A stretch of DNA of 64,000 nucleotides from Haloechinothrix halophila YIM 93223 (GTDB lineage Bacteria > Actinomycetota > Actinomycetes > Mycobacteriales > Pseudonocardiaceae). The notes beneath the pieces are model-generated. The model was not told where the DNA came from. It ran no database searches and saw nothing but the letters and a program-made list of their open reading frames with translations. The stretch covers positions 1,425,723-1,489,722 of the forward strand of contig NZ_KI632509.1 in NCBI RefSeq assembly GCF_000504245.1, in the 5' to 3' direction. This document shows positions 17,362 to 63,020 of the stretch, in pieces. Each line of letters begins with the position of its first letter. Within the stretch, counting starts at the first letter, position 1. The translations under genes were made by a program, and so were the position numbers.

Positions 17362-17873
17362 TGCGACTGGTGCGTGATCCGCTGGTGGCCATCCTCGCGG
17401 TGCTGACCGTGGTCGCGGTGGCCGCCGCCGCGTGGTTCGGCACGGCATGGGTCAGCGCCGCTCGCGACGAGGGGCTGGCACGGGCCGAGCAGCGTGACGT
17501 GGTGCTCCAGGCGGCCGAGCACGGGCTGGTCACGCTGCACACCCTCGACCACCGTGAGGCGAAGCGGGACGTCGCGGCGTGGCTGGACGTCACGGCGGGC
17601 GGGCTGCACCGGGACCTGGCCGGGGACCAGGTTGGTCAGCGAGAGCAGGCACGGCAGACGAAGACGGTGTCCAGTGCGGAGCTGCTCCGGGCCGCGGTGA
17701 CCGAGCTGAACGGGCACGCGGGCACCGCGCAGGTGATCGCGGTGCTCACGACCACGCTGGAGACGCAGGGGGCGAAGGGCGAGAAGAAGTCCACCGAGCG
17801 GAAGCGGGTGAACGCCGAGCTGGTGCGCCGCGACGGGCGGTGGAAGGTCAGCGCGGTGGAGGCGGCGGCATGA
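17361..17873 (+). CDS. Mce-associated membrane protein 1
   Basis: 170 aa; one N-terminal membrane helix (residues about 9-30) followed by a soluble domain ending DGRWKVSAVEAA, typical of Mce-associated (Mam/Mas) proteins after mceF, which are thought to stabilise the transporter. ATG overlaps the mce4F stop (TGATG). It corresponds by position to the mycobacterial Rv3493c-type gene. Confidence 0.85.
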   Translation: MRLVRDPLVAILAVLTVVAVAAAAWFGTAWVSAARDEGLARAEQRDVVLQAAEHGLVTLHTLDHREAKRDVAAWLDVTAGGLHRDLAGDQVGQREQARQTKTVSSAELLRAAVTELNGHAGTAQVIAVLTTTLETQGAKGEKKSTERKRVNAELVRRDGRWKVSAVEAAA

Positions 17874-18400
17874 AGATTGCTCGCAGGTCCGACGGCACGC
17901 GGCGGCGGATCATCGCGGTGCTCGCTGCGGTGCTGACGCTGGCGACCGCGAGCGCGGTGGTCTCCGGGGTCCGGGCGCACCAGCTGCGTGGCACGGAGTC
18001 TGCGGCCAACGCCGCGCTGGTCGATACCGAGGCGACCGAGGCCGTTGTGGAGCAGGTGAGCGCGTCGCTGAAGGCGGCGTTCTCGTACCACCACACGCGG
18101 TTGGAGCGCACCGAACACGCCATGGACGTCGGGCTGATCGGCGAGGCGGCGGCGGAATACCGGCGGGAGTTCGAGGCGGCCGCGCAGCAGGCGAAACGGC
18201 GCAAGCTGGTGAAGGCCGCGACGGTGCGGGCTATCGGCGTGCGGGAACTGACCGACGGGCGGGCGACCGTGCTGGTGTTCCTTGACCAGCAGGTCAGCCG
18301 CCAGGGCAGTGCGCCAACGTCGTCCACCGCGACCCTGGACGTCACCGCGCTTCGCGACAACGACGGGGTGTGGCGGATTTCCGACATCGAGGGGTTGTGA
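17870..18400 (+). CDS. Mce-associated membrane protein 2
   Basis: 176 aa; an N-terminal arginine-rich start, one membrane helix (IIAVLAAVLTLATASAVVSG), then a SnoaL-like soluble domain with VLVFLDQQVSRQ and a C-terminal GVWRISDIEGL. Paralogue of the preceding gene and translationally coupled to it (ATGA). Last gene of the operon; a long palindrome follows at 18457. Confidence 0.85.
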   Translation: MKIARRSDGTRRRIIAVLAAVLTLATASAVVSGVRAHQLRGTESAANAALVDTEATEAVVEQVSASLKAAFSYHHTRLERTEHAMDVGLIGEAAAEYRREFEAAAQQAKRRKLVKAATVRAIGVRELTDGRATVLVFLDQQVSRQGSAPTSSTATLDVTALRDNDGVWRISDIEGL

Positions 18401-18456
18401 CCCGGCGGGTGAGCTCGGCCCTGTTGGTCCAGCGGGTCAGGTCTGAGCAGTGGCGG

Positions 18457-18510
18457 GTGGATCTTGATGCTGTTTGGCGATGCATATCGCCAAACAGCAT
18501 CAAGATCCAC
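18457..18510. terminator. Perfect 25-bp inverted repeat at a convergent gene junction
   Basis: Arms 18457-18481 and 18486-18510 are exact reverse complements, with a GCAT loop. The arm starts GTGGATCTTGA and ends TGGCGAT. It lies between the converging ends of the mce4 operon and the ferredoxin reductase, so it could terminate transcription from both sides, although there is no T-run. The same GTGGATCTTGA...TGGCGA plan recurs in the palindrome carrying the IS481 element near 61.4-62.8 kb. Confidence 0.65.
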
Positions 18511-18560
18511 ATCAACCCGCCGCACTGCTCGCGCGACCGTGCGGCATCAACCGGCCGCGT

Positions 18561-19748
18561 TCAACCTGCCACGGCCTCCAGGGCGTCGTTCCAGCTCACG
18601 CGCTTGCCGATCTGCGCGCGCAGCCGCATCACGAGACGTCGTTGCTCCACGCCGAGCGCGCCGATGAGCCGGTCATCCCTGCGATACAGCGCCAGGAGCG
18701 TGTCCTCACCAACGCCGCCCGCGACGACCCGCACCTCGTCCGCGGTCGGAACGCCGACGAACTGCACGCGGCTGTCGTAGAGGTCCGACCAGAAGTACGG
18801 CACCAGCGTGCACGGAGTCGCCTGGGCCGGGTCGGTGGCGTTGCGCGCGGCCAGTCCGCCCTGCTCGGCGGCAGACGTCCAGTGCTCGAGTCGCATCGTC
18901 TCGCCGAACAGCGGGTTGAACCAGCGCGCGACGTCACCCGCCGCGTACACGCCAGGTGCGCTGCTCTGCAGGGTCTCGTCGCAGACGACGCCGTCGTCGA
19001 GCTTCACGCCAGAGCCACGGAGCCAGTCGATCGCTGGCGCGGCGCCAACGCCGACGATCGCGACGTCAGCGGGCAACGTCGAGCCGTCGCCGAGCCGGAC
19101 GGCCCGCACCCGATCGTCGCCGTCGATGCCCGTGACGGTGACGCCGCAGCGCAGGTCGGTGCCGTGGCGGGTGTGGAGGGCGGCGATCGCGGGCGCCAGC
19201 TCGTCGCCGACCGCGGCGGCGAAGGGCACATGCGCGGCCTCGACCAGTGTCACCTCGGCACCCATCCGTCGCGCGGAGCAGGCCAGCTCCGAACCGATGA
19301 ACCCCGCACCCACGATCACCACTCTGCTGCCGGGCTGGATGGCGGTGCGCAGCGCGCGGGCGTCGTCCAGCGTGCGCAGCGTGTGCAGCCCGGACAGCGC
19401 AGGAAGTCCCGGCAGTGTTCGTGCGGTCGCACCGGTGGCTAGCACCGCCGCCGTGTACGGCACCGGGTCGTCTCCCGCGAGGATGACCCGCTGCTCGGGG
19501 TCGAGCCCGGTTGCGGGTGTGCCGAGTCGTAAGTCGACGTCGAGGTCGGTGCGCAGCGCGTCCTCGGTGCGGAACTGCTTCGGCGTGCCGTCGCCGGTCA
19601 GGAACTCCTTGGACAGCGGCGGCCGATCGTACGGCAGGTGCTCCTCCGCGCCGAGCAGCGTGATCGCGCCGGTGAATCCTGCCCGTCGTGCGGACTCCAC
19701 CGCGCGCAGCCCGGCCAGCGACGCGCCAACGACGACGAGTCGCGCCAC
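18561..19748 (-). CDS. FAD-dependent ferredoxin reductase
   Basis: 395 aa from GTG 19748, two bases after the ferredoxin stop. N-terminal VVVGASLAGLRAVESARRAG (FAD), the LPYDRPPLSKEFLTG motif, VVIVGAGFIGSELACSARRMG (NAD(P)H), and APGVYAAGDVARW near residue 270: the rubredoxin/putidaredoxin reductase family. It would pass electrons from NAD(P)H to the adjacent ferredoxin and onward to a P450 or Rieske oxygenase not encoded in this window. Confidence 0.9.
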   Translation of the reverse strand: MARLVVVGASLAGLRAVESARRAGFTGAITLLGAEEHLPYDRPPLSKEFLTGDGTPKQFRTEDALRTDLDVDLRLGTPATGLDPEQRVILAGDDPVPYTAAVLATGATARTLPGLPALSGLHTLRTLDDARALRTAIQPGSRVVIVGAGFIGSELACSARRMGAEVTLVEAAHVPFAAAVGDELAPAIAALHTRHGTDLRCGVTVTGIDGDDRVRAVRLGDGSTLPADVAIVGVGAAPAIDWLRGSGVKLDDGVVCDETLQSSAPGVYAAGDVARWFNPLFGETMRLEHWTSAAEQGGLAARNATDPAQATPCTLVPYFWSDLYDSRVQFVGVPTADEVRVVAGGVGEDTLLALYRRDDRLIGALGVEQRRLVMRLRAQIGKRVSWNDALEAVAG

Positions 19749-27321: not shown

Positions 27322-28102
27322 TGCTGATCCGGACTGCGTTCGCTTCAAGCCACATATCCGCGACAGCTGGGAGTGGCGGATTTCCAAGGGGCGTGACGGT
27401 CAGGGTCGGCCCAACCCGCCAGATCCACCTGTGCCGCCGGGCCCGCCAGCGCCGCCGGGCCCGCCGCCGATGCCTGGTGGCAGTGGGTGTGGAAACTGCT
27501 GGGGCGTTCTCGATGACGCGGCCGCCATTGCGGCCAACGAAGCCACTGAGAACGTGATCAACTGGACTCGGATCATCGATGATCGCGCCACCACCAAGGC
27601 TGAGCGTCCCGACCTCAGCATTACCATCCGCGAGGCCGCCAAGGACCTCTGGGAGAAGGCCAACGACGTCGTCAACGACATCCACCTCGGCGTCGTCGGA
27701 GACGACGGCAGCGAAGACCAGCCCTATCAGCCTGATGAGGTACCTACAGAAATTGCTGCGCCGGCACCGACGCGTGACGATAGAGACGAGGATCAAGTCC
27801 AAATCTTCCGAAACGTCGATGAAGTAGAGTTCAATGACATCGCTGCAACGCAGCGTTTCAATATTGCTCCAGGCATGATGGTGGGTAAGTGGTTCGCTCT
27901 TACGGGACCTGATGCCGAAGAGTGGGGACGTCGGCTCAATAAGGGGAACGGGATAACTGTTGAAACTAGGATTCCAAGATCTACATTCGACACGCTGCTA
28001 TACCATGAGCGATGGGATGGAATAGGTCCAGCGGTGTGGGCAGAGCCGCCGCAGCTCGAATTAATAAACCAGACTATGGACGGAATACGAGTTTGGCCAT
28101 GA
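27233..28102 (+). CDS. RHS toxin tip: shared linker plus ART-like toxin domain
   Basis: This frame (open from 27038) becomes meaningful at about 27233. It has a hydrophobic helix (ALVLLFGSVVGSLVL), a Pro/Gly hinge (PPVPPGPPAPPGPP), then a linker RPDLSITIREAAKDLWEKAN that recurs in the toxin at 30658. The last 100 residues contain VGKWFALTGPDAEEWGRRL, ITVETRIPRSTFDTL and WDGIGPAVWAEPPQL, which recall ADP-ribosyltransferase-like RHS tips; this is a tentative reading. No start codon lies near 27233, so translation would require fusion to the RHS core. The stop overlaps the immunity gene (ATGA). Confidence 0.65.
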   Translation, partial: ASSLALVLLFGSVVGSLVLNPGRLADGTCDADPDCVRFKPHIRDSWEWRISKGRDGQGRPNPPDPPVPPGPPAPPGPPPMPGGSGCGNCWGVLDDAAAIAANEATENVINWTRIIDDRATTKAERPDLSITIREAAKDLWEKANDVVNDIHLGVVGDDGSEDQPYQPDEVPTEIAAPAPTRDDRDEDQVQIFRNVDEVEFNDIAATQRFNIAPGMMVGKWFALTGPDAEEWGRRLNKGNGITVETRIPRSTFDTLLYHERWDGIGPAVWAEPPQLELINQTMDGIRVWP

Positions 28103-28461
28103 AGGATAGTGTCGAACCCGCTATAGCACATATGAGAGTCGAATGGCGAAAGACCTATGAGGATGGAAGGGGGTTCACGCCTCCGAGCGCCCGAGTGTTC
28201 ACTGCTGGATGTAGGTTTACGGGCGGGAAAGAGTCTGAACCGATGGGTGTGATCCTAGAACTGTTGGATTCGAACTTTGGCAACCGATGCTTGTACAAGG
28301 TCGACTTTCCGGATCGGCGACTCGCATACTCCTATCTTGAAGTGGGTGCCGAAGTAACAATAACTGAAGGGCCAGTTTCAATAGTAGGACGAGGAATAGT
28401 TACTAAAGTTCTTAAAGATGAAGCATACATCAGAGAATTCCCCTACCATATGTCGGACTAA
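28099..28461 (+). CDS. Probable immunity protein for the RHS tip
   Basis: 120 aa, AT-richer than its surroundings, starting on the ATGA overlap with the toxin stop, the classic toxin-immunity arrangement. Mostly beta-strand-like: MGVILELLDSNFGNRCLY, LEVGAEVTITEG, VGRGIVTKVLKDEAYI. No named immunity family is recognised; function inferred from position, size and composition. Followed directly by a hairpin terminator. Confidence 0.65.
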   Translation: MKDSVEPAIAHMRVEWRKTYEDGRGFTPPSARVFTAGCRFTGGKESEPMGVILELLDSNFGNRCLYKVDFPDRRLAYSYLEVGAEVTITEGPVSIVGRGIVTKVLKDEAYIREFPYHMSD

Positions 28462-28467
28462 CATCGC

Positions 28468-28494
28468 GCTTTCACGCAGCATCAGCGTGAAGGC
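28468..28494 (+). terminator. Hairpin after the immunity gene
   Basis: GCTTTCACGC and GCGTGAAGGC pair over nine of ten positions around a 7-nt loop, starting 7 nt after the immunity stop. There is no T-run, but the position fits a terminator. Confidence 0.45.
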
Positions 28495-28628
28495 TCGAAG
28501 CCTGACGGTGAATCGATTGCAACACGGTACACGTCATCTGACTAAGGCTGGGATCTCTCCTGTATGGAGGGCAAGACGGGCCCTGCTCTGCGGCAGGCGA
28601 GGAGGTCCGGGATGACGATCCGCGATTA

Positions 28629-28919
28629 GTGCGGCGAGACAAGGCCCGTCGGCGTCGGGTGTGGGCGCCTCCAGCAGTGGTAATCGTGATTGGGCTGGTG
28701 ATGGCGGCGGGTGCGGACTACCGGGAGATCCATTCGACGACGGCCTTCACCGACGCCGGACTACCGAACGGCACGGACCGCGCCGGTCTGGTGAATGTGA
28801 CGCCGTTCGCGGCTACGGGCGGGGGCCTGCTGCGCACCCTTGCCGGACTGCTGTGGTTGGTCCCGGCGCTCTTCTGGCTCCGCCGAAAGAGGATGCAGAA
28901 GCGAGCGAGCACTGAATAG
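28629..28919 (+). CDS. Small two-helix membrane protein, unknown
   Basis: 96 aa with two membrane helices (PPAVVIVIGLVMAAGA and LLRTLAGLLWLVPALFWL) and a basic tail. The GTG start overlaps the stop of a 21-codon open frame (28564-28629, beginning MEGKTGPALRQARR) that could be a leader or remnant. RBS not evident. Lies between two toxin-related cassettes; it could be a small membrane immunity protein, but nothing shows that directly. Confidence 0.45.
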   Translation: MRRDKARRRRVWAPPAVVIVIGLVMAAGADYREIHSTTAFTDAGLPNGTDRAGLVNVTPFAATGGGLLRTLAGLLWLVPALFWLRRKRMQKRASTE

Positions 28920-28964
28920 CTCCCCGACCAAGGCCGGGCGGTTCCATTCTCGTTGCTGATGATA

Positions 28965-29126
28965 GAAAAATCTATACAATGTTGATGGTCTGCCGTACAA
29001 TGTCGTGTCTCAAGAACGATTCGATGAACTTTACCGGGACGGAATGACGGAAGTTGTACGCATGTGGGCGGAGGTTGGGCCGAACAGAATTCATAATCCG
29101 TATCGAAAGGGGTCAGGTTATCGATG
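28965..29126 (+). pseudogene. Orphan toxin C-terminal tail
   Basis: After a stop codon near 28963 an open frame without a start reads VDGLPYNVVSQERFDELYRD, then MTEVVRMWAEVGPNRIHNP, ending in a stop that overlaps the next ATG (ATGA). Size, composition and the overlap with an immunity-like gene mark it as the last part of a displaced polymorphic toxin tip. The toxin type is not recognised. Confidence 0.55.
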
Positions 29127-29504
29127 ATCCTCGACCCTGCCGGGGAAGTGAAAGAATTTTTGCGTGCATTATACCATGTACGTTCGGTCGTCTTCGAGGA
29201 GATTCCCGGTCTCCATGGGAGCGTCCCGTCGATGAGGTGGATGTATCACTCCAAAGCTCTGGATAAATCTGGTTCAGTAGGCGGTCGGATAGATTACAAT
29301 ATGCATGGAATCGGCTGCTGGTTTATCGACGAAAGTGGCGCCTTAATTGATGTCGACTTCGATTATTCAGTTGATGAGAAGGGTGTCGAGATATTCGATT
29401 GCTGGAGGGTTAAACGCTACTCTGAAAGTATTGGTTCTGAAGCGTCTCCAGTCCTGAAGAAATTATTGACGCTTGCAGGGGGCTTGTTTCTCTTGAGTGG
29501 ATAA
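29124..29504 (+). CDS. DUF6896-like protein, probable immunity protein
   Basis: 126 aa. YNMHGIGCWFIDESGALIDV and FDCWRVKRYSES match the pattern I know for DUF6896, often found as immunity in polymorphic-toxin loci. It is AT-rich and translationally coupled to the orphan toxin tail just upstream. It may still protect against the original toxin even though only the tail remains here. Confidence 0.65.
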   Translation: MILDPAGEVKEFLRALYHVRSVVFEEIPGLHGSVPSMRWMYHSKALDKSGSVGGRIDYNMHGIGCWFIDESGALIDVDFDYSVDEKGVEIFDCWRVKRYSESIGSEASPVLKKLLTLAGGLFLLSG

Positions 29505-29593
29505 CTGAGTTGCGTAATGGATGGTTTACTCCGGTCTGGGAAAAATTCGATTCCGATAGAGATGTCTGCGTGTAGCGCAAAAGGGTTCAAGGT

Positions 29594-29660
29594 GGAACGA
29601 AGCGCTGTTCGACCCCTCGGTCTCTAGTCTTTTATGCGCGCCAGGTGTTCACGAAGTTTT
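29594..29660 (-). pseudogene. Short remnant of a fic gene
   Basis: About 64 bases align at roughly 80% identity with 35237-35300 inside the intact fic gene, same strand. Shared blocks include CTGTTCGA, CCCTCGG, CCAGG and TTCACGAAG. The segment corresponds to GDRGRGIEQSRF in the intact protein. No open frame survives. The rest of 29505-29936 has no gene that I can see. Confidence 0.55.
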
Positions 29661-29936
29661 CATATCCGAGCGAGTTGGTTCGGGTCGTCGAACTGGGGCT
29701 CACTGATCTAGCATTCTGGTTGATCCTAGAGAGAGGTCAGTTGGCGGGTCGCTATCGCGGACTGCAAAATGATTCCCGTCACGCGCCGCCAGGATAACGA
29801 CGATGTCGCGTGCCGGGAATTAGAGCGAAGTCGCGGGTGCGTGGTGATCGTGCGCGACTATGCCTCGCCAGAATGGGAACAGTGTTCGGAATTCGCTACT
29901 CTCAACGTCTGACGCCGATATTTTGTAGGGATCTGC

Positions 29937-30480
29937 ATGCGTGCTGAGAAGTTGAGCAAGGTGGTGTCGTACGCGTTGCGTCATGCGCCGTGGTTGTATG
30001 AGCTGGAGCTTGATGCCGAGGGGTGGGCTCCGGTTGATCAGTTGTTGGATGCGTTGCGTGCTAAGGGGGGCGTGGGAGGCGGTGGACGGCGAGGCGCTGG
30101 CCGTCATGATCGAGTCGTCTGCCAAGCGGCGTTTCGAACTTGTCGGTGATCGCATCCGCGCTTTGTATGGCCATTCGCTGCCCGGGCGGGTTGAGCGGCA
30201 GGTGGCTAAGCCTCCGGAGGTTTTTTATCACGGCACTGCTCCCGGGACGTGGGAGGCGATCCGCGGCGAGGGGCTCCAGCCCATACGTCGTCAGTACGTG
30301 CATTTGTCTGTCGACACGGCGACGGCTGTGGCCGTTGGCAAGCGCAAGAGCACGTCGCCCGTCCTTCTCAGCGTTGCCGCATCCGAGGCGGCGGCCGACG
30401 GCATCGAGTTCTACGTCGGTAACGAGGCAACCTGGCTCGCGCTGCAGATTCCGGCCAGGTTCATTCGGCCCTGCACGTAG
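29937..30480 (+). pseudogene. kptA: RNA 2'-phosphotransferase copy 1, frameshifted
   Basis: KptA/Tpt1 transfers the 2'-phosphate of RNA to NAD+. The N-terminal [14 protein letters not shown] is read in one frame. After codon about 43 the frame changes and continues [46 protein letters not shown] and YVHLS to a normal C-terminus. Compared with copy 2 at 32698, two bases are missing in the G-run near 30066. The core Tpt1 residues (RH, GHS, YHGT) are otherwise intact, so the gene was functional recently or this is an assembly error in a homopolymer. Confidence 0.8.
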
Positions 30481-30498
30481 TGGCAGCGGTAGTGCGGC

Positions 30499-30597
30499 TC
30501 AGCGCTCCCAGGTCTTGCCCGTGATCCGCTCGTAGACGTCGATGTAGCGCTGCCGGGTCGCCTGCACGATGTCGTCGGGGATCTCTGGGCCTGGCGG
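30499..30597 (-). pseudogene. Duplicate of the purC 3' end
   Basis: Ninety-nine bases repeat the last part of purC (35910-36008) in the same orientation, at about 91% identity, encoding IPDDIVQATRQRYIDVYERI and a stop. Homology ends abruptly at about 30597, where a toxin reading frame begins. The repeat and the intact purC bracket a 5.3-kb segment with toxin, immunity, kptA and fic, suggestive of an integration or recombination scar. Confidence 0.85.
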
Positions 30598-30657
30598 GAA
30601 TCTGGTGGTTACCGGAACGGCCGCCGTCATCGGGATCGCCGCTGTCGGGGCTGCGGC

Positions 30658-31731
30658 GTGGACTGCATACGCTTCGAGTCCAGCCCGGCTGGTCGGGAGG
30701 CGGCATCTGATCTCGAGGCTAGCCTGTCGTCGGTGGCTGGCGACGTGGCCGACGGGGTGGCTGATGCGTGGGACAACATCACAACAACCACTGTCGCGGG
30801 CACGGCGGTGGCTGCTCCTCCGAGGCCGGACCTGAGCGATTACGACGCGGCGAAGGCGTGGCTGTGGCGGTCCATGGCCACCGCCGCAGGTACAGCAGCG
30901 GCCGTCGATGCTATTTCCAGTTCTGGTGGTTCGCCCGGTTCTGGAAGTGGACCCGGCAACTACCTGCCACAGTGTGGATACGCCTGTGTGGCCACTCTGG
31001 GCACCGGCGCCGGTGGTGTGGCTACCGTGACCGCTACCCCCGAACAACTGCGCCAGCAGTATTGGAGTCAGGAGGTCAACGAACGCGCCAACACCAAGGC
31101 GCCACGCCCCGATCTCAATACGACCGTCCGTGAGGCCGCTAAGAGCCTTTGGAAAGCCGCCAACGACCCCGGCAACGACATCGACCTGGGCACCGTTGGA
31201 GGCGGTGATAATCAACAGGATGAGCGGTACACACCTGAGCGGGGGCCTGATACATCTGCCGCCCCTGCGCCGGTGCCCCCTGGCACAACCCCCAAGAAGT
31301 TCCGCAAGCAAGGTTGCGGAAAGGGATGGAAAGACTACGGAGATGTCCTCAAGAACGGAAACCGGACCGGGGTCAGGGCATGCTTGACCTCAAGCGACAT
31401 CGGCCAGGGGCAGAAAGTGCGTGAATGGATCAAGCCGCCAGGATATGGAGGCAGAGCGCAAAAACATGACAAGGGACATCTCCTTGCGAAGAAGCTTGGA
31501 GGTACTGGCGAAATGCCAGAGAACTTTGTCACCGTCTATCAAAGTCCCAACCGAGGTCGCATGAGAGTCGGGGAAAATGAAGTTGCTAACGCGTTGGAAA
31601 CGCAGGATGTGTACTACACCTCGACGCCGATATATCGAAATGGTGATCCGATACCATATAAGATCATGATCACTGCGAGGGGAACGAAGGGTCTAGCGTT
31701 TACGATTCCTGTAGAGAATACGCCATCGTAA
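30658..31731 (+). CDS. Polymorphic toxin tip with DNA/RNA non-specific endonuclease domain
   Basis: 357 codons. The middle repeats the linker seen at 27.6 kb (RPDLNTTVREAAKSLWKAAN). The C-terminal domain has HDKGHLLAKKLGGTGEMPEN and VYQSPNRGRMRVGENEV, the DxGH...N...NRG pattern of the NUC/EndA nuclease superfamily, with His of DKGH as the expected base. N-terminally, a hydrophobic helix (GTAAVIGIAAVGAAAWTAYA) lies in another frame from 30599, so a frameshift has occurred near 30680. There is no RHS core or secretion signal: an orphan tip replaced beside the purC fragment. An SMI1-type gene follows. Confidence 0.75.
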   Translation: MDCIRFESSPAGREAASDLEASLSSVAGDVADGVADAWDNITTTTVAGTAVAAPPRPDLSDYDAAKAWLWRSMATAAGTAAAVDAISSSGGSPGSGSGPGNYLPQCGYACVATLGTGAGGVATVTATPEQLRQQYWSQEVNERANTKAPRPDLNTTVREAAKSLWKAANDPGNDIDLGTVGGGDNQQDERYTPERGPDTSAAPAPVPPGTTPKKFRKQGCGKGWKDYGDVLKNGNRTGVRACLTSSDIGQGQKVREWIKPPGYGGRAQKHDKGHLLAKKLGGTGEMPENFVTVYQSPNRGRMRVGENEVANALETQDVYYTSTPIYRNGDPIPYKIMITARGTKGLAFTIPVENTPS

Positions 31732-31746
31732 CAGGAAGGGTTCGAG

Positions 31747-32292
31747 ATGAGTGCGCTTGATCGATTGATTTCTCTTGTGCCACCGTATTCGTACAAAGAC
31801 GATAGGAGTATCGATTGGGCGGCGGTGGAATCTCAGTTGGATTCGCCGTTGCCGTCGGACTACAAGCGCCTGGTCGAGCGGTATGGTGCTGGTGTTTTCG
31901 ACGACTTTATTTGGGTATATCAGCCAATGTATCCGACCGAGGCTTTGGATATAGGGTGGCGTAATCGAAATGCATTAGAAACTCTCAGGGTTATAGGTGC
32001 GGATCAAATTCCGTATTCGATTGAGGCTGGCGCTGAGGAACTTCTGGTCTGGGGTGGAACCGAGACAAGAGAAGAGTGTTATTGGGTGAAGAGCGACGCC
32101 GATCCTGAGAGGTGGACGGTAGTTCTGAATGACGCGGGGGACGATGAGTGGTTTTCATTTGAAGGCTCGATGAGCGAGTTTCTAGTTGCGGCACTGTCGG
32201 GAGAATGCGGACGTGACTTTTTCGTGGATTTCCCGTCGCCTCGACCGATTTTTTCCCCCGACCCGCTACCGGTGATCGATTCGACCGATTAA
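31747..32292 (+). CDS. SMI1/KNR4-family immunity protein
   Basis: 181 aa. LDSPLPSDYKRLVERYGAG is the N-terminal SMI1/KNR4 (SUKH) signature, with ELLVWGGTETREECYWV further on. SUKH proteins are common immunity factors for nuclease toxins. It starts 15 nt after the endonuclease toxin stop with AGGAAGGG upstream, so it is most likely the cognate immunity protein. Confidence 0.85.
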   Translation: MSALDRLISLVPPYSYKDDRSIDWAAVESQLDSPLPSDYKRLVERYGAGVFDDFIWVYQPMYPTEALDIGWRNRNALETLRVIGADQIPYSIEAGAEELLVWGGTETREECYWVKSDADPERWTVVLNDAGDDEWFSFEGSMSEFLVAALSGECGRDFFVDFPSPRPIFSPDPLPVIDSTD

Positions 32293-32390
32293 CGAACTGA
32301 AAGTTGTGGAGGAGATGTTTCGACCTGGCACGTTACCGATGACGGGCTACGCTTGACGGCTGTGATGTCGATAGCAGTGCCACGCTTACG

Positions 32391-32606
32391 TTGGGTGAGA
32401 TTGCCGGATCCGCCAGTATCCGATGGCTTGAGAATGGCGATGAAAGGCTTGTGCTTAAGCGCGAGACCGTGTCAAAGGTTTCGGCCCGCGATGAGTATGG
32501 AGGCGTCCAGTTTCTAGTTTGGTCTTACTCCGAGGGTCTTAGCGGCAAGCTGATCGTACGAGTTGGCGAGCACGTGTCAGTGCGTGACGCATTGCTCCGC
32601 ACCTAA
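32391..32606 (+). CDS. Small protein, probably a truncated or frameshifted gene
   Basis: 71 codons from a TTG: IRWLENGDERLVLKRETVSK, GVQFLVWSYSEGLSGKL. Upstream, another frame reads STWHVTDDGLRLTA and the same frame reads DVDSSATLTLGE, so the true gene may begin near 32310 with a one-base shift. No family recognised; AT-rich like the other immunity genes in this island. Confidence 0.4.
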   Translation: MGEIAGSASIRWLENGDERLVLKRETVSKVSARDEYGGVQFLVWSYSEGLSGKLIVRVGEHVSVRDALLRT

Positions 32607-32697
32607 CTCCGTTGTGGGTGCTTGGCAGCTGGCGAATGGGAAGCGCCGGAGTTCGCTAAGGTCAACGACCGGCGCCGACATATAGGGGAGGGTCTGA

Positions 32698-33258
32698 TTG
32701 CGTTTACGTACTGAGAAGCTGAGCAAGGTCGTGTCGCACGCGTTGCGGCATGCGCCGTGGCTTTATGAGCTGGAGCTCGATGGCGAGGGTTGGGCTCCGG
32801 TTGATCAGTTGGTGGATGCGCTGCGTGCTAAGGGTGGGGCGTGGGAGGCGGTGGACGGCGAGGCGTTGGCCGACATGATCGAGTCGTCTGCCAAGCGGCG
32901 TTTCGAACTTGTCGGTGACCGCATCCGCGCTTTGTATGGTCATTCGCTGCCTGGGCGGATCGAGCGGCAGCCTGCCACACCGCCTGACGTCCTTTACCAC
33001 GGCACTGCTCCCGAGACCTGGGAGGCGATCCGCGTCGAGGGGCTCCAGCCCATACGCCGTCAGTACGTGCACCTGTCCGTCGACAAAGAGACCGCTGTGG
33101 CTGTTGGCAAGCGCAAGAGCACATCACCCGTCCTTCTCAGCGTCGCCGCCGCTGCAGCGGCGGCCGATGGTGTCGAGTTCTACATGGAAACGAGACAACC
33201 TGGCTCGCACAGCAGATTCCGGCTAAGTTCATCCGGCGGTGTACGTCGTAGCGAATAG
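32698..33258 (+). pseudogene. kptA: RNA 2'-phosphotransferase copy 2, C-terminal frameshift
   Basis: Reads [46 protein letters not shown] and YVHLS intact in one frame from a TTG with GGGAGGG upstream. The last 25 residues are out of frame: restoring one base near 33188 gives NETTWLAQQIPAKFIRRCTS and a stop that matches copy 1. The catalytic region is intact, so the protein might retain activity with an altered tail. About 65 bp upstream of the start are also homologous to copy 1, showing a segmental duplication of roughly 620 bp. Confidence 0.8.
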
Positions 33259-33420
33259 ACACATCACCGTGCATCCCTGCTGAGCTGTATGGAGTTCGAA
33301 TCGACCCCTCATCCGGCATTCCAAGCACGGCGGACTGTACTTACTCGTCCGTGGGACCGATGCGTCGCAATTGGGCAGAAGACGTCAATTATCCTCATCT
33401 ACTGACTCTGGAGGGGTGTA

Positions 33421-34524
33421 GTGGAGGACGACGCGGTAGTTGCGGCGATCCCGGAGGCTCCGGGGCCCCGCACCGACCGGCCTGGCGCGGAGGACCCGCA
33501 TACGCGAGTGGTGATCAGATTTGTCTATCGAGGTTTATGGCGGGGTGTCGGCGGATGCGCGGGGATGTGTGCGCTCGCTGGCATCGTGGCATTCTTCGGC
33601 CGGGAGACACTGGCGGCGATTACGCTGTTCATCGGGCTCGCCTTGGCGCTGCTGTTCTTCCGCCAGTTGACGTTACTTCGCGCCGTTGACAAGGCCATGG
33701 CGGCGCAGACGTGGCGCCCGGTGATCGCGCGGCCCTTGCGGGCGACTGACTGTCGCGTTGAGGTCCGTGACGGGGCCAACCTGTTCTACCTGAAGGGCGG
33801 CGTGCTCGATCCGTTCGCGCAGGTTCTCGCGCGTCACCCACGCGCGTGGCTGGTCGGGCCCGACTCGCGGGGCAGGGTGGCGCTACGCCTGCCAGGAATC
33901 CATTCCCCGATTCCGCTGCGAAAGGCGAAGAACGCCGACGGTTATCGCGAGGTGCGGCCACGTCAAACGGACATCGACCCGGCCGCTCCGGCATCCGAGG
34001 ACGAGGTCGCGATTCGCTGGGCCAAGGTGGTGCGCCGCAAGACTCGTCGATGGTTCTGTTGGCCCGCACTGCTCGCCCTCGCGGTTTCGGTCGGATTCCT
34101 CCGTGGAGCGTCCGACCAGACCGCTGCGGATGAGGCGAGTATGTCGGTAGCGATCGCGGCCGCGGCCGGTGTGCTGGTGCTGCTGATATGGGCGCTGTCG
34201 CGGTGGCAGAAGGGTCGGGACGCGGTAACGTTGCCGAAGCTGCTCGCCGCTGGCCCCTGGCAGCGTTATTCCATCCGACTCACGTCTCCCTACCGTCCTG
34301 GGAAGTTCGCGTTCGGTGATGTCTCCGTCGCGGTTGAGTTCGACGGCATGGAGCATCCGTTCACCCTGCACTACGCGTCGCCGGATGTGGTGGGCTACAT
34401 CGAGAACACCGGCACGATCTGGTTCGCGGCCTCACCGCATTCCGGCGGACAGGCGATCGCTGTAGGCGTACCGGGATATCCCATCATCGGAATCGTTCGT
34501 CCTGCGGCGCCCGAATCCCGCTGA
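33421..34524 (+). CDS. Membrane protein of unknown function
   Basis: 367 aa from GTG 33421 (GGAGGGG upstream). Two pairs of membrane helices: residues about 42-85 (AGMCALAGIVAFFG, AITLFIGLALALLFF) and about 215-265 (FCWPALLALAVSVGFL, VAIAAAAGVLVLLIWAL), separated by and followed by soluble beta-rich domains. The domain after the first pair (RPLRATDCRVEVRDGANLFY) and the C-terminal VEFDGMEHPFTLHYASP show a repeated plan. No family recognised; GC content is closer to the chromosome than the toxin cassettes. Confidence 0.7.
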   Translation: MEDDAVVAAIPEAPGPRTDRPGAEDPHTRVVIRFVYRGLWRGVGGCAGMCALAGIVAFFGRETLAAITLFIGLALALLFFRQLTLLRAVDKAMAAQTWRPVIARPLRATDCRVEVRDGANLFYLKGGVLDPFAQVLARHPRAWLVGPDSRGRVALRLPGIHSPIPLRKAKNADGYREVRPRQTDIDPAAPASEDEVAIRWAKVVRRKTRRWFCWPALLALAVSVGFLRGASDQTAADEASMSVAIAAAAGVLVLLIWALSRWQKGRDAVTLPKLLAAGPWQRYSIRLTSPYRPGKFAFGDVSVAVEFDGMEHPFTLHYASPDVVGYIENTGTIWFAASPHSGGQAIAVGVPGYPIIGIVRPAAPESR

Positions 34525-40170: not shown

Positions 40171-40250
40171 GATCAACTTGCCCTGTGCTGTGACCAAAAA
40201 CGTGTCCGTTTTGCCGGATCTAGCTGGTAACAGTGCAGGGTAAGCTGATC
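40171..40250. repeat. Imperfect long inverted repeat between convergent genes
   Basis: Arms 40171-40195 and 40226-40250 pair over 20 of 25 positions around a 30-nt loop. The left arm sits in GTGGATCAACTTG. As with the palindrome at 18457, it lies between converging transcription units (SpoIIM gene and DUF58 gene). A role in termination is possible. Confidence 0.45.
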
Positions 40251-46458: not shown

Positions 46459-47013
46459 TTATGGCGCTGTGATGCCAGCGCGTGTCAGCGCCCTGCGCAG
46501 ACGTCGTAGGCAGCGCGTCCGCAGCTGACCGACGCTGGCCGGGGTGACGCCGAGTTTCGTCGCGATATCGGCGTAGCTCATCCCTGGTGACCGTGCGATG
46601 AGGTGCGCGATGAGCCGGTCCCTGATGGGCAGGGTGGCGACGACTCGCCACAGCGTCCGATCGCGGTCGCGCAGGGAGATGTCGTCGCTTGGGCTCATGG
46701 CAGCGTCCGGCGTCATTCCGTTGGTGACGTCATCCGACGGGCTCTCGGTGCGGTGGTGGCGCAGCGCCCGCATCGCCTCGCGGATGGCGATGGTGCGCAG
46801 CCAGCCCGCCGCGCGTTCCGGGTGCCGGATGGTGTCGCGGTGCTCCAGGAACCGCAGCCACACCTCCTGCAGGACGTCCTCGACATCGGCGTCGGCGAGC
46901 TTGCAGCGCCGCAGCACGGTGCGGAGCCGGGGCGTGAGCCCGCTGACGAAGTCGTCCACTGGCTCGCCCGCCCTGGGAAGCGGTGGTGGCTGACTCGCGT
47001 CATCGTTGCTCAT
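46459..47013 (-). CDS. ECF-type RNA polymerase sigma factor
   Basis: 184 aa. Region 2: DADVEDVLQEVWLRFLEH, then WLRTIAIREAMRALR. Region 4: LPIRDRLIAHLIARSPGMSY, ADIATKLGVTPASVGQLRTR. No anti-sigma factor is adjacent, so regulation is not evident. The 22-bp repeats lie upstream of its start. Confidence 0.87.
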   Translation of the reverse strand: MSNDDASQPPPLPRAGEPVDDFVSGLTPRLRTVLRRCKLADADVEDVLQEVWLRFLEHRDTIRHPERAAGWLRTIAIREAMRALRHHRTESPSDDVTNGMTPDAAMSPSDDISLRDRDRTLWRVVATLPIRDRLIAHLIARSPGMSYADIATKLGVTPASVGQLRTRCLRRLRRALTRAGITAP

Positions 47014-61324: not shown

Positions 61325-61404
61325 CGCTGCGTGCGGCGCGCGGACCAGCAGGACTGTACGCGCTGACCTAGTGGATCTTGAGACGTCGTGGCGAAATAGA
61401 TCGC

Positions 61405-62817
61405 TGCCGTGTGTCTTGAGATGTCGGACGGTGGTGTGTCGGGACATGGCTGACACCTGAGTGCTGTGGCCAGACTTGCTGGTCATGGCGGAACAGGTGG
61501 TTGCTATGGAGATCCGGCTGTTGGTGGCGCTGGCCGGACGCCCAGGACAGGAACGGGTCAATGTCACCGCGTTGTGTGCCGAGCTCGGGATCTCGCGGGA
61601 CACGTTCTACCGGTATCGACGCCGCTTCGACGGCCGTGGCCTGGAGGGGGTGCTGCCCCGGTCGCGGCGCCCACACCACTCGCCGGGCCAGACCCCGGAC
61701 TGGCTGGAGGAGTTGATCGTGGCCACGCGCCACGAACTCGACAGGCAGGGCTGGGACTGTGGGGCACGCTCGATCCGCTACCGGCTGCTGCGGCGCGGCA
61801 TCAGCCCCTCGCCCACGGCGCGCACGATCCATCGAGTGCTGGTGCGCCGCGGTGAGATCACCCCGGCGCCGCAGAAACGGCCCCGCTCGTCGTGGCGGCG
61901 GTTCGAGTTCGCCGAGCCGAACGGCTGCTGGCAGATCGACGGCACCGAATGGCACCTGGCCGACGGCACTCCCGCGGTGATCCTGCGGGTGCTCGACGAC
62001 TGTTCCCGCAAAACGCTGGCCAGCAGGGCAGCAGTGAGCGAGAACGCCGCCGACGCCTGGGGCTGCATGCTCACCGCGCTGACCCGCCACGGACGCCCGG
62101 CGATCCTGCTCTCCGACGGCGGCGCGGCGTTCACCGCCCGCCACCGTGGCGGGTGGGCGGCATTCGAGGCCAACCTGCGCGCCCTGGCCATCACCCCCGC
62201 GGTCGCCAGCCCGCACCACCCACAAACCTGCGGCAAGAAGGAACGCGAATGGCAAACCCTGAAACGCTGGCTGCGTGCCCGCCCCACCGCGGCCAACCTG
62301 ACCGAACTACAGCAGCAACTCGACCTCTACGACGCCGCCTACAACGCGCTCCGACCCCACCAAGCCCTCGACGGACACACCCCCGACGAACGCTACGCCC
62401 AACGCCACACCACCAGCGACAACAACGACGACACCCCACCCGCACCTCTGCCCCCACTACCAGTGGTGCGCGACGTCAAAGCCAGCACGACCGGCACGGT
62501 CGCCATCGGCCGCCACCAACAAGCCCAAGTCGGCATCCAATGGCAACACGCCCAGCTCACCGTATTCCGCGACGGCAACCGCGTCGCGATCTTCCACCGC
62601 GACCACCTCGTCCGCGCCCTCGACGCCGACCCCAACCGCCGCTACCAACCCCTCGGCAGCCGACCCGGCCCACCACGACGACCACGCCTGGCCCTACCCA
62701 ACTCCCCACTGCCCCACCCCCAACTAGCCGAAGCGAGAAACCAACCCAACCACAAATGATCAGCGTACTGTCAGACATGTCCGGACACACGTGTCAGACA
62801 TGTCCCGCCACACCACA
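61405..62817 (+). mobile_element. IS481-family insertion sequence with 14-bp target duplication
   Basis: 1413 bp from TGCCGTGTG (left) to CACCACA (right). Terminal 25-bp inverted ends match at 18 positions, and each end carries a second copy of a TGTC-GGACATG-CTGACA-type repeat (61431-61456 and 62791-62816, 24 of 26 matching). The flanking direct repeat GCGAAATAGATCGC (61391-61404 and 62818-62831) is the target duplication. Removing the element and one repeat restores a perfect palindrome whose arms are 61371-61394 and 62828-62851. Identical repeats and an intact transposase suggest recent insertion. Confidence 0.88.
61461..62759 (+). CDS. IS481-family DDE transposase
   Basis: 432 aa from GTG 61461 (ATG 61485 or 61506 also possible). 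N-terminal HTH (VTALCAELGISRDTFYRYRR), then the rve catalytic core: first Asp in WQIDGTEWH, second in LLSDGGAAFT, Glu in CGKKEREWQT, and YNALRPHQALDGHTPDERY. A C-terminal extension of about 110 residues, basic and Pro-rich, follows. Reads as intact and probably active. Confidence 0.92.
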   Translation: MLWPDLLVMAEQVVAMEIRLLVALAGRPGQERVNVTALCAELGISRDTFYRYRRRFDGRGLEGVLPRSRRPHHSPGQTPDWLEELIVATRHELDRQGWDCGARSIRYRLLRRGISPSPTARTIHRVLVRRGEITPAPQKRPRSSWRRFEFAEPNGCWQIDGTEWHLADGTPAVILRVLDDCSRKTLASRAAVSENAADAWGCMLTALTRHGRPAILLSDGGAAFTARHRGGWAAFEANLRALAITPAVASPHHPQTCGKKEREWQTLKRWLRARPTAANLTELQQQLDLYDAAYNALRPHQALDGHTPDERYAQRHTTSDNNDDTPPAPLPPLPVVRDVKASTTGTVAIGRHQQAQVGIQWQHAQLTVFRDGNRVAIFHRDHLVRALDADPNRRYQPLGSRPGPPRRPRLALPNSPLPHPQLAEARNQPNHK

Positions 62818-63020
62818 GCGAAATAGATCGCCACGACGTCTCAAGATCCACTTTCTGCTCGGACGAAGTGTGCGTTTCGGGCGTGCGTGGGCCGGAGTCG
62901 TCGCGTGGTGCTGTGCCCGGTCCCGTGTGATTCCGCCCGTTCCGATGTTGATCAACATCGCGGAGTTCGCGCCACCAGCATCGCGGGCGAGGCCCGCGTG
63001 ACCGCCGGGAAGGTGGAACC

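Follow-up and report, generated by a model that had tools for sequence, protein, structure and literature searches.

REP-like 54-nt palindromes dispersed behind genes in Haloechinothrix: possible transcript-end hairpins

Introduction

Intrinsic terminators without a T-tract, called I-shaped, are made of a stable hairpin placed right after stop codons, often at convergent junctions. The palindromes described here share these traits, being predicted to form stable hairpins, located just past stop codons and often between convergent genes. However, they form a dispersed repeat family, whereas I-shaped terminators are individually evolved hairpins.

Two further systems are close to this family. 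According to the available part of PMC3733652, CGTC-tagged REPs are short dispersed palindromes, mostly intergenic, found mainly at convergent or unidirectional junctions and lacking a dedicated transposase. The present family is similarly short, dispersed and mostly intergenic, with the same preference for convergent and unidirectional junctions. Unlike REPs, it consists of near-perfect palindromes of a fixed length of 54 nt with neither a GTAG nor a CGTC tag, and it is confined to one genus in the sampled genomes, where positions are kept across species and the two arms change together. The second system comprises the REP-targeting insertion sequences ISRm22, ISPsy8 and ISPpu9/10, which insert at the axis of dispersed intergenic palindromes (PMC1525189, available part). 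An insertion sequence enters the palindrome axis of a dispersed intergenic repeat in our case too, but it belongs to the IS481 family, a name absent from PMC1525189, and its 14-bp duplication is centred on the axis.

Thus, the family itself is new, while its kind, REP-like palindromic repeats, is already known. No description of it appeared among the papers listed by searches of the open-licence PMC literature, and a search on REP in Pseudonocardiaceae gave no paper. Here REP-like repeats can be studied in a genus of actinomycetes that lacks a RAYT in its reference genome, and their loss, their inheritance and the changes in their arms can be traced gene by gene between species. They are also a clean test of whether dispersed hairpins owe their covariation to RNA selection or to self-correction of palindromes.

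Results and Discussion

The palindrome at 18457-18510 and its neighbours

The window is the whole stretch of 64,000 nucleotides analysed here, taken from Haloechinothrix halophila YIM 93223. This source genome (G000) is a single contig of 5,551,297 bp, and G001, G002 and G003 are congeners. Features of the window are collected in Table 1.

Table 1. Positions in the window of the two family elements and of the features next to them.
Feature	Coordinates	Strand	Details	Basis
Last gene of mce-type operon	17870..18400	+	stop codon 56 nt before the 18457 element	own gene finder
Family element, 54-nt palindrome	18457..18510	.	arms 18457-18481 and 18486-18510, loop 18482-18485	inverted-repeat listing, RNA folding, covariance model
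Ferredoxin-reductase-type gene, convergent	18561..19748	-	stop codon 50 nt from the 18457 element	Pyr_redox_2 and Reductase_C
Left half of the second family element	61371..61404	.	ends in 14-bp target duplication 61391-61404	
IS481-family insertion sequence, 1413 bp, on the palindrome axis	61405..62817	+		ends read by eye
Transposase gene (rve, LZ_Tnp_IS481)	61461..62759	+		gene finder and Pfam
Right half of the interrupted element	62818..62851	.	starts with 14-bp target duplication 62818-62831	

The element is a perfect inverted repeat with 25-bp arms and a 4-nt loop, the sole one of such quality among the 18 listed for the window. When 91 nt around it were folded as RNA, z-scores of -12.9 and -11.8 were obtained on the two strands, and none of 200 shuffles matched the fold of the region. 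It is recognised by the covariance model of the family with an E-value of 4.6e-19; Rfam gave no match within the 64-kb window. The sequence-only reading had placed this perfect hairpin between convergent mce4 and ferredoxin-reductase units, and the inverted repeat and the Pfam domains agree: the operon carries Mce4_CUP1, MlaD and MlaE domains, although the product of its last gene has no Pfam match. The comparison which that reading drew with the IS-interrupted palindrome is likewise borne out by the sequences. Both share GTGGATCTTGA and TGGCGA, and the seven middle bases that differ are compensated in the opposite arm.

The hairpin is nested within a wider imperfect stem in window 18440-18530 (GAGCAGTG...CACTGCTC). 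A general outer palindrome, as would result from insertion into an older hairpin, was dropped as a rule because flank complementarity is at chance level over all 71 copies.

Copy number and distribution

A covariance model built on 25 copies from the source genome gave 142 strand matches at 72 places in that genome, 71 of them with an E-value of 1.1e-5 or better. Since 150 of the 3777 first-look candidates were scored, with 142 matching, 71 copies is a lower bound. The hairpin thus represents a family, as had been proposed from the window with a genome-wide search as the check, and the genome carries at least 71 intact 54-nt copies plus three interrupted ones. A fixed-spacing pattern was found at 38 places per strand, and its reversed control at none. 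The ends are symmetric (GTGGATC...GATCCAC).

Among 60 genomes, the source genome included, seven had covariance-model matches. G002 displayed 84 strand matches and G003 20, four other genomes had 1 to 4 weak ones, and G001 had none, though it is a congener. No match was found in the viruses, plasmids and phages searched. G002 and G003 also have subfamilies in which the core is unchanged and the ends are not (GATCTGAAGAC, AGCTGTAGAC); in some of these the two arms differ.

Exact GATCTTGA ends were found in 5 of 200 genomes of the host's family (42 in G000, 22 in G002, 2 in G003 and 1 each in two others) and, class-wide, in 9 of 394 genomes: besides G000, G141 had 28, G079 8, G175 2 and five others 1 each. 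The same search run backwards hit 1 of the 200 and 1 of the 394 genomes. The palindromes listed for G141, G079 and G175 have the same ends, a length of 48-49 nt and other cores. A contig scan with the pattern GATCTTGAN{30,36}TCAAGATC gave at least 116 matches; among the 116 listed, 91 had an interior less than half paired and 9 had at least 0.7 of inner pairs, eight of these nine being from Actinomycetota by record title, and G002 itself being among the matches. Palindromes some 47-49 nt long, alike in their GATCTTGA ends but with unrelated cores, might have arisen by independent amplification in several families of actinomycetes, and separate amplification would in turn imply a trans-acting factor, other than a RAYT, that reads the ends and accepts any self-complementary core. 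We consider this rather improbable. If true, a transposase-like enzyme or a DNA-binding protein would seed interchangeable hairpins behind genes.

Placement relative to genes

Genes were called with our own crude codon-based finder. Convergent junctions hold 37 of the 71 copies and tandem junctions 31; the remaining 3 are at divergent junctions. Relative to the intergenic space of the same regions, which were chosen for holding copies (0.218/0.583/0.200 for convergent/tandem/divergent), convergent junctions are in excess (p 2.0e-8) and divergent ones in deficit (p 1.4e-4). Moreover, 28 of the 31 tandem copies are closer to the stop codon upstream of them (p 4.6e-6). Measured to whichever stop is nearest, the median distance is 29.5 nt, and 62 of 68 values do not exceed 100 nt. 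No overlap with a predicted gene was seen for 65 of the 71 copies; five overlap a gene end by up to 11 nt and one is wholly intragenic. In G002, a listed subset of 49 copies was placed, with 32 at convergent, 14 at tandem and 2 at divergent junctions and 1 without a junction type, and 13 of the 14 tandem copies were nearer the stop. Placement at 3' ends is solid. Location at gene ends had been predicted, with random placement as the outcome that would speak against it, and the copies are far from randomly placed.

As in an intrinsic terminator, a stable hairpin lies after the stop codon. The T-tract of a Rho-independent terminator is lacking: TTTT follows the hairpin at none of the 31 tandem and none of the 74 convergent ends. 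The genus also has ordinary terminators beside the T-less hairpins; they read AAAAGGCCCCGC...GCGGGGCCTTT and occur near 595475 in G000 and near the 585738 junction in G001.

Insertion of an IS481-family element at the palindrome axis

The element that splits the second copy in the window encodes a protein scoring above cut-off for PF00665, PF13683 and PF13011, i.e. an rve integrase core and the IS481 leucine zipper. The source genome contains three full copies of it and a partial 63-bp match elsewhere, and G001-G003 contain none. Each of the three full copies interrupts a palindrome of the family. With 74 x 54 nt, the family makes up some 0.07% of the genome, so this is not chance. Each 14-bp duplication, with boundaries set by eye, corresponds to element positions 21-34 and is centred on the axis, although the sequences of the three duplications differ, as do the loops of the targets. 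Use of the family axis by the IS481 element is thus shown, and the element appears to treat these palindromes as safe places to land.

Tests of known repeat classes and traces of mobility

As a dispersed, mostly intergenic palindromic repeat (71 places, 65 of 71 copies outside genes), the family is REP-like, and its gene-end location resembles that of known REPs (PMC3733652, available part). A REP/REPIN mobilised by a RAYT, a Y1 tyrosine transposase, is nevertheless very improbable and largely refuted. The Y1_Tnp domain (PF01797) has no match in the single-contig source genome or in G003, it occurs once in G002 and once in G001, which has no family copies, and neither a GTAG nor a CGTC tetranucleotide is present at either end of the family. 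The target-site duplication expected of a MITE is also lacking: flank identity showed no excess in 67 of the 71 copies with eight choices of boundary, four irregular or frame-shifted copies having been dropped.

The intragenic copy (1366162-1366215 of the source contig C1) is translated in frame within an acyl-CoA dehydrogenase gene and lies at the same place in G002. The surrounding residues, 136-174, are lacking in 6wy8, the nearest solved homologue, whose two aligned stretches abut there. From this insert relative to 6wy8 we infer a past insertion of the copy. Its core differs between G000 and G002 as one block, which suggests exchange.

Conservation of positions and covariation of arms

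In an alignment of family copies, pairing holds for 86.7% of cells, compared to 29-42% once the partners are slid, and changes on both sides are seen in 10 of 25 pairs. For the interspecies comparison, 53 copies of G002 and G003 were set against stretches of the source genome amounting to 7% of it. Twenty-eight share their junction with a source-genome copy (27 from G002 and 1 from G003), one maps to another place, and the other 24 are without a match in the compared 7%. Hence, of 28 placeable G002 copies, 27 lie at the junction of a source-genome copy.

After one irregular copy was dropped, 26 G002-G000 pairs were compared, two G002 copies sharing one G000 copy. Stem positions changed on both sides numbered 74, whereas independent sides would give an expectation of 27.5. 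Of the 74, 48 are Watson-Crick in both species, and one-sided changes number 103. At the copy at 46828, for instance, T-A became G-C in both arms between orthologues whose stems otherwise match. The covariation, whose absence the sequence-only reading had named as a refutation, is thus present between copies and between orthologues. That reading had gone further, to selection of structure rather than sequence. The covariation stands, but the step to selection at the RNA level does not follow. Tandem copies have a known transcript strand, on which selection for RNA pairing predicts more G.U than A.C mismatches; the counts were 20 G.U against 22 A.C in G000 and 9 against 15 in G002, and give no support for RNA-level selection on the hairpin. 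Since G.U does not exceed A.C, covariation alone is no proof of such selection.

The same covariation would result if template switching homogenised the arms or if copies exchanged sequence. For yeast, template switching that makes the arms of inverted repeats alike and inverts the spacer is described (PMC8604942, available part). In our pairs, the arms of one copy are more alike (0.85) than are same-side arms of orthologues (0.79). We infer that arm homogenisation adds to the covariation. These processes are part of a neutral or selfish explanation, in which the copies are remnants of a short mobile palindrome persisting at the least harmful sites, behind genes, with arms matched by template switching and exchange and with no host function. 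The lack of a G.U/A.C asymmetry fits it, as do the copy within a coding gene and the block swapped between its orthologues. Moreover, orthologous copies are barely more alike than non-orthologous ones (identity 0.746 vs 0.697) despite 0.878 in a coding stretch of G002 vs G000. G003 is as near to the source genome as G002 in coding identity (0.885 vs 0.878) and has few copies, so copies are dispensable. Against this explanation, almost all placeable G002 copies keep their junction, and the placement is tighter behind the stop than would obviously follow if copies merely avoided promoters. We regard it as somewhat unlikely.

Symmetric mismatch classes are also what a DNA-level site predicts, i.e. 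a palindrome or cruciform bound by a nucleoid or topology factor or by a recombinase, mainly between convergent genes. Such a site would agree with the GATC and GG blocks being fixed among copies while positions 15-18 vary, with the choice of the axis by the IS481 element in three copies with different loops, and with the many GATCTTGA-ended palindromes of different cores in genomes of other families. However, those shared ends come from a search by the ends only, no candidate protein was found, and the tandem copies stay close to the upstream stop, a position not required of a pure DNA site. We judge a DNA-level site to be improbable.

The 18457 junction is occupied in G002 by a 54-nt relative that has diverged and ends in GTTGAT on its arms, and in G001 and G003 by unrelated strong hairpins. 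Among nine scored junctions without the family in G001 or G003, five carry an unrelated hairpin stronger than all 200 shuffles and four do not. This weakly suggests that hairpins at such gene ends are wanted yet interchangeable.

The explanation we prefer, with roughly even confidence, is that of REP-like 54-nt palindromes amplified within the genus, formerly mobile, kept almost only behind genes and probably forming hairpins at transcript ends. A palindrome of fixed length would have been amplified inside one genus by insertion at many places in the past, and copies would then have been retained almost solely just downstream of genes. Each copy would fold into a hairpin without a T-tract in RNA made from either side; this hairpin may mark or protect mRNA 3' ends and insulate convergent neighbours. 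The transcript-end role is probable in view of the convergent excess and the hugging of the stop by tandem copies, both repeated in G002, of the retained junctions and double arm changes in that species, and of the unrelated hairpins at five of nine family-free junctions, the 18457 junction of G001 and G003 included. Against it stand the missing T-tract, the lack of a G.U excess over A.C, the few copies in G003, the four family-free junctions without a strong hairpin and the 580504 site, which has no intergenic DNA in G003. In addition, other strong hairpins are not significantly rarer at convergent junctions bearing an element (4 of 30 vs 5 of 15; p 0.63 on score excess).

A second palindrome family and a stretch with few gene calls

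The palindrome at 40171-40250 had been taken for an imperfect relative of the 18457 element. The family matrix and the covariance model argue against this: its best matrix score is -33.9, compared to 73.0 for 18457, and it is absent from the covariance-model listing even up to an E-value of 10. It belongs to a second family with GATCAACTTRCC ends. In the stretches of the source genome examined, this motif gave four matches at three places, and its reversed control none. The second family is dispersed and its members measure about 80-90 nt; they lie at window 40171-40250 and at 1919761 and 2349609 in the source genome.

Finally, our gene finder called a single short ORF in window 27322-33564; composition or coding content is therefore unusual there.
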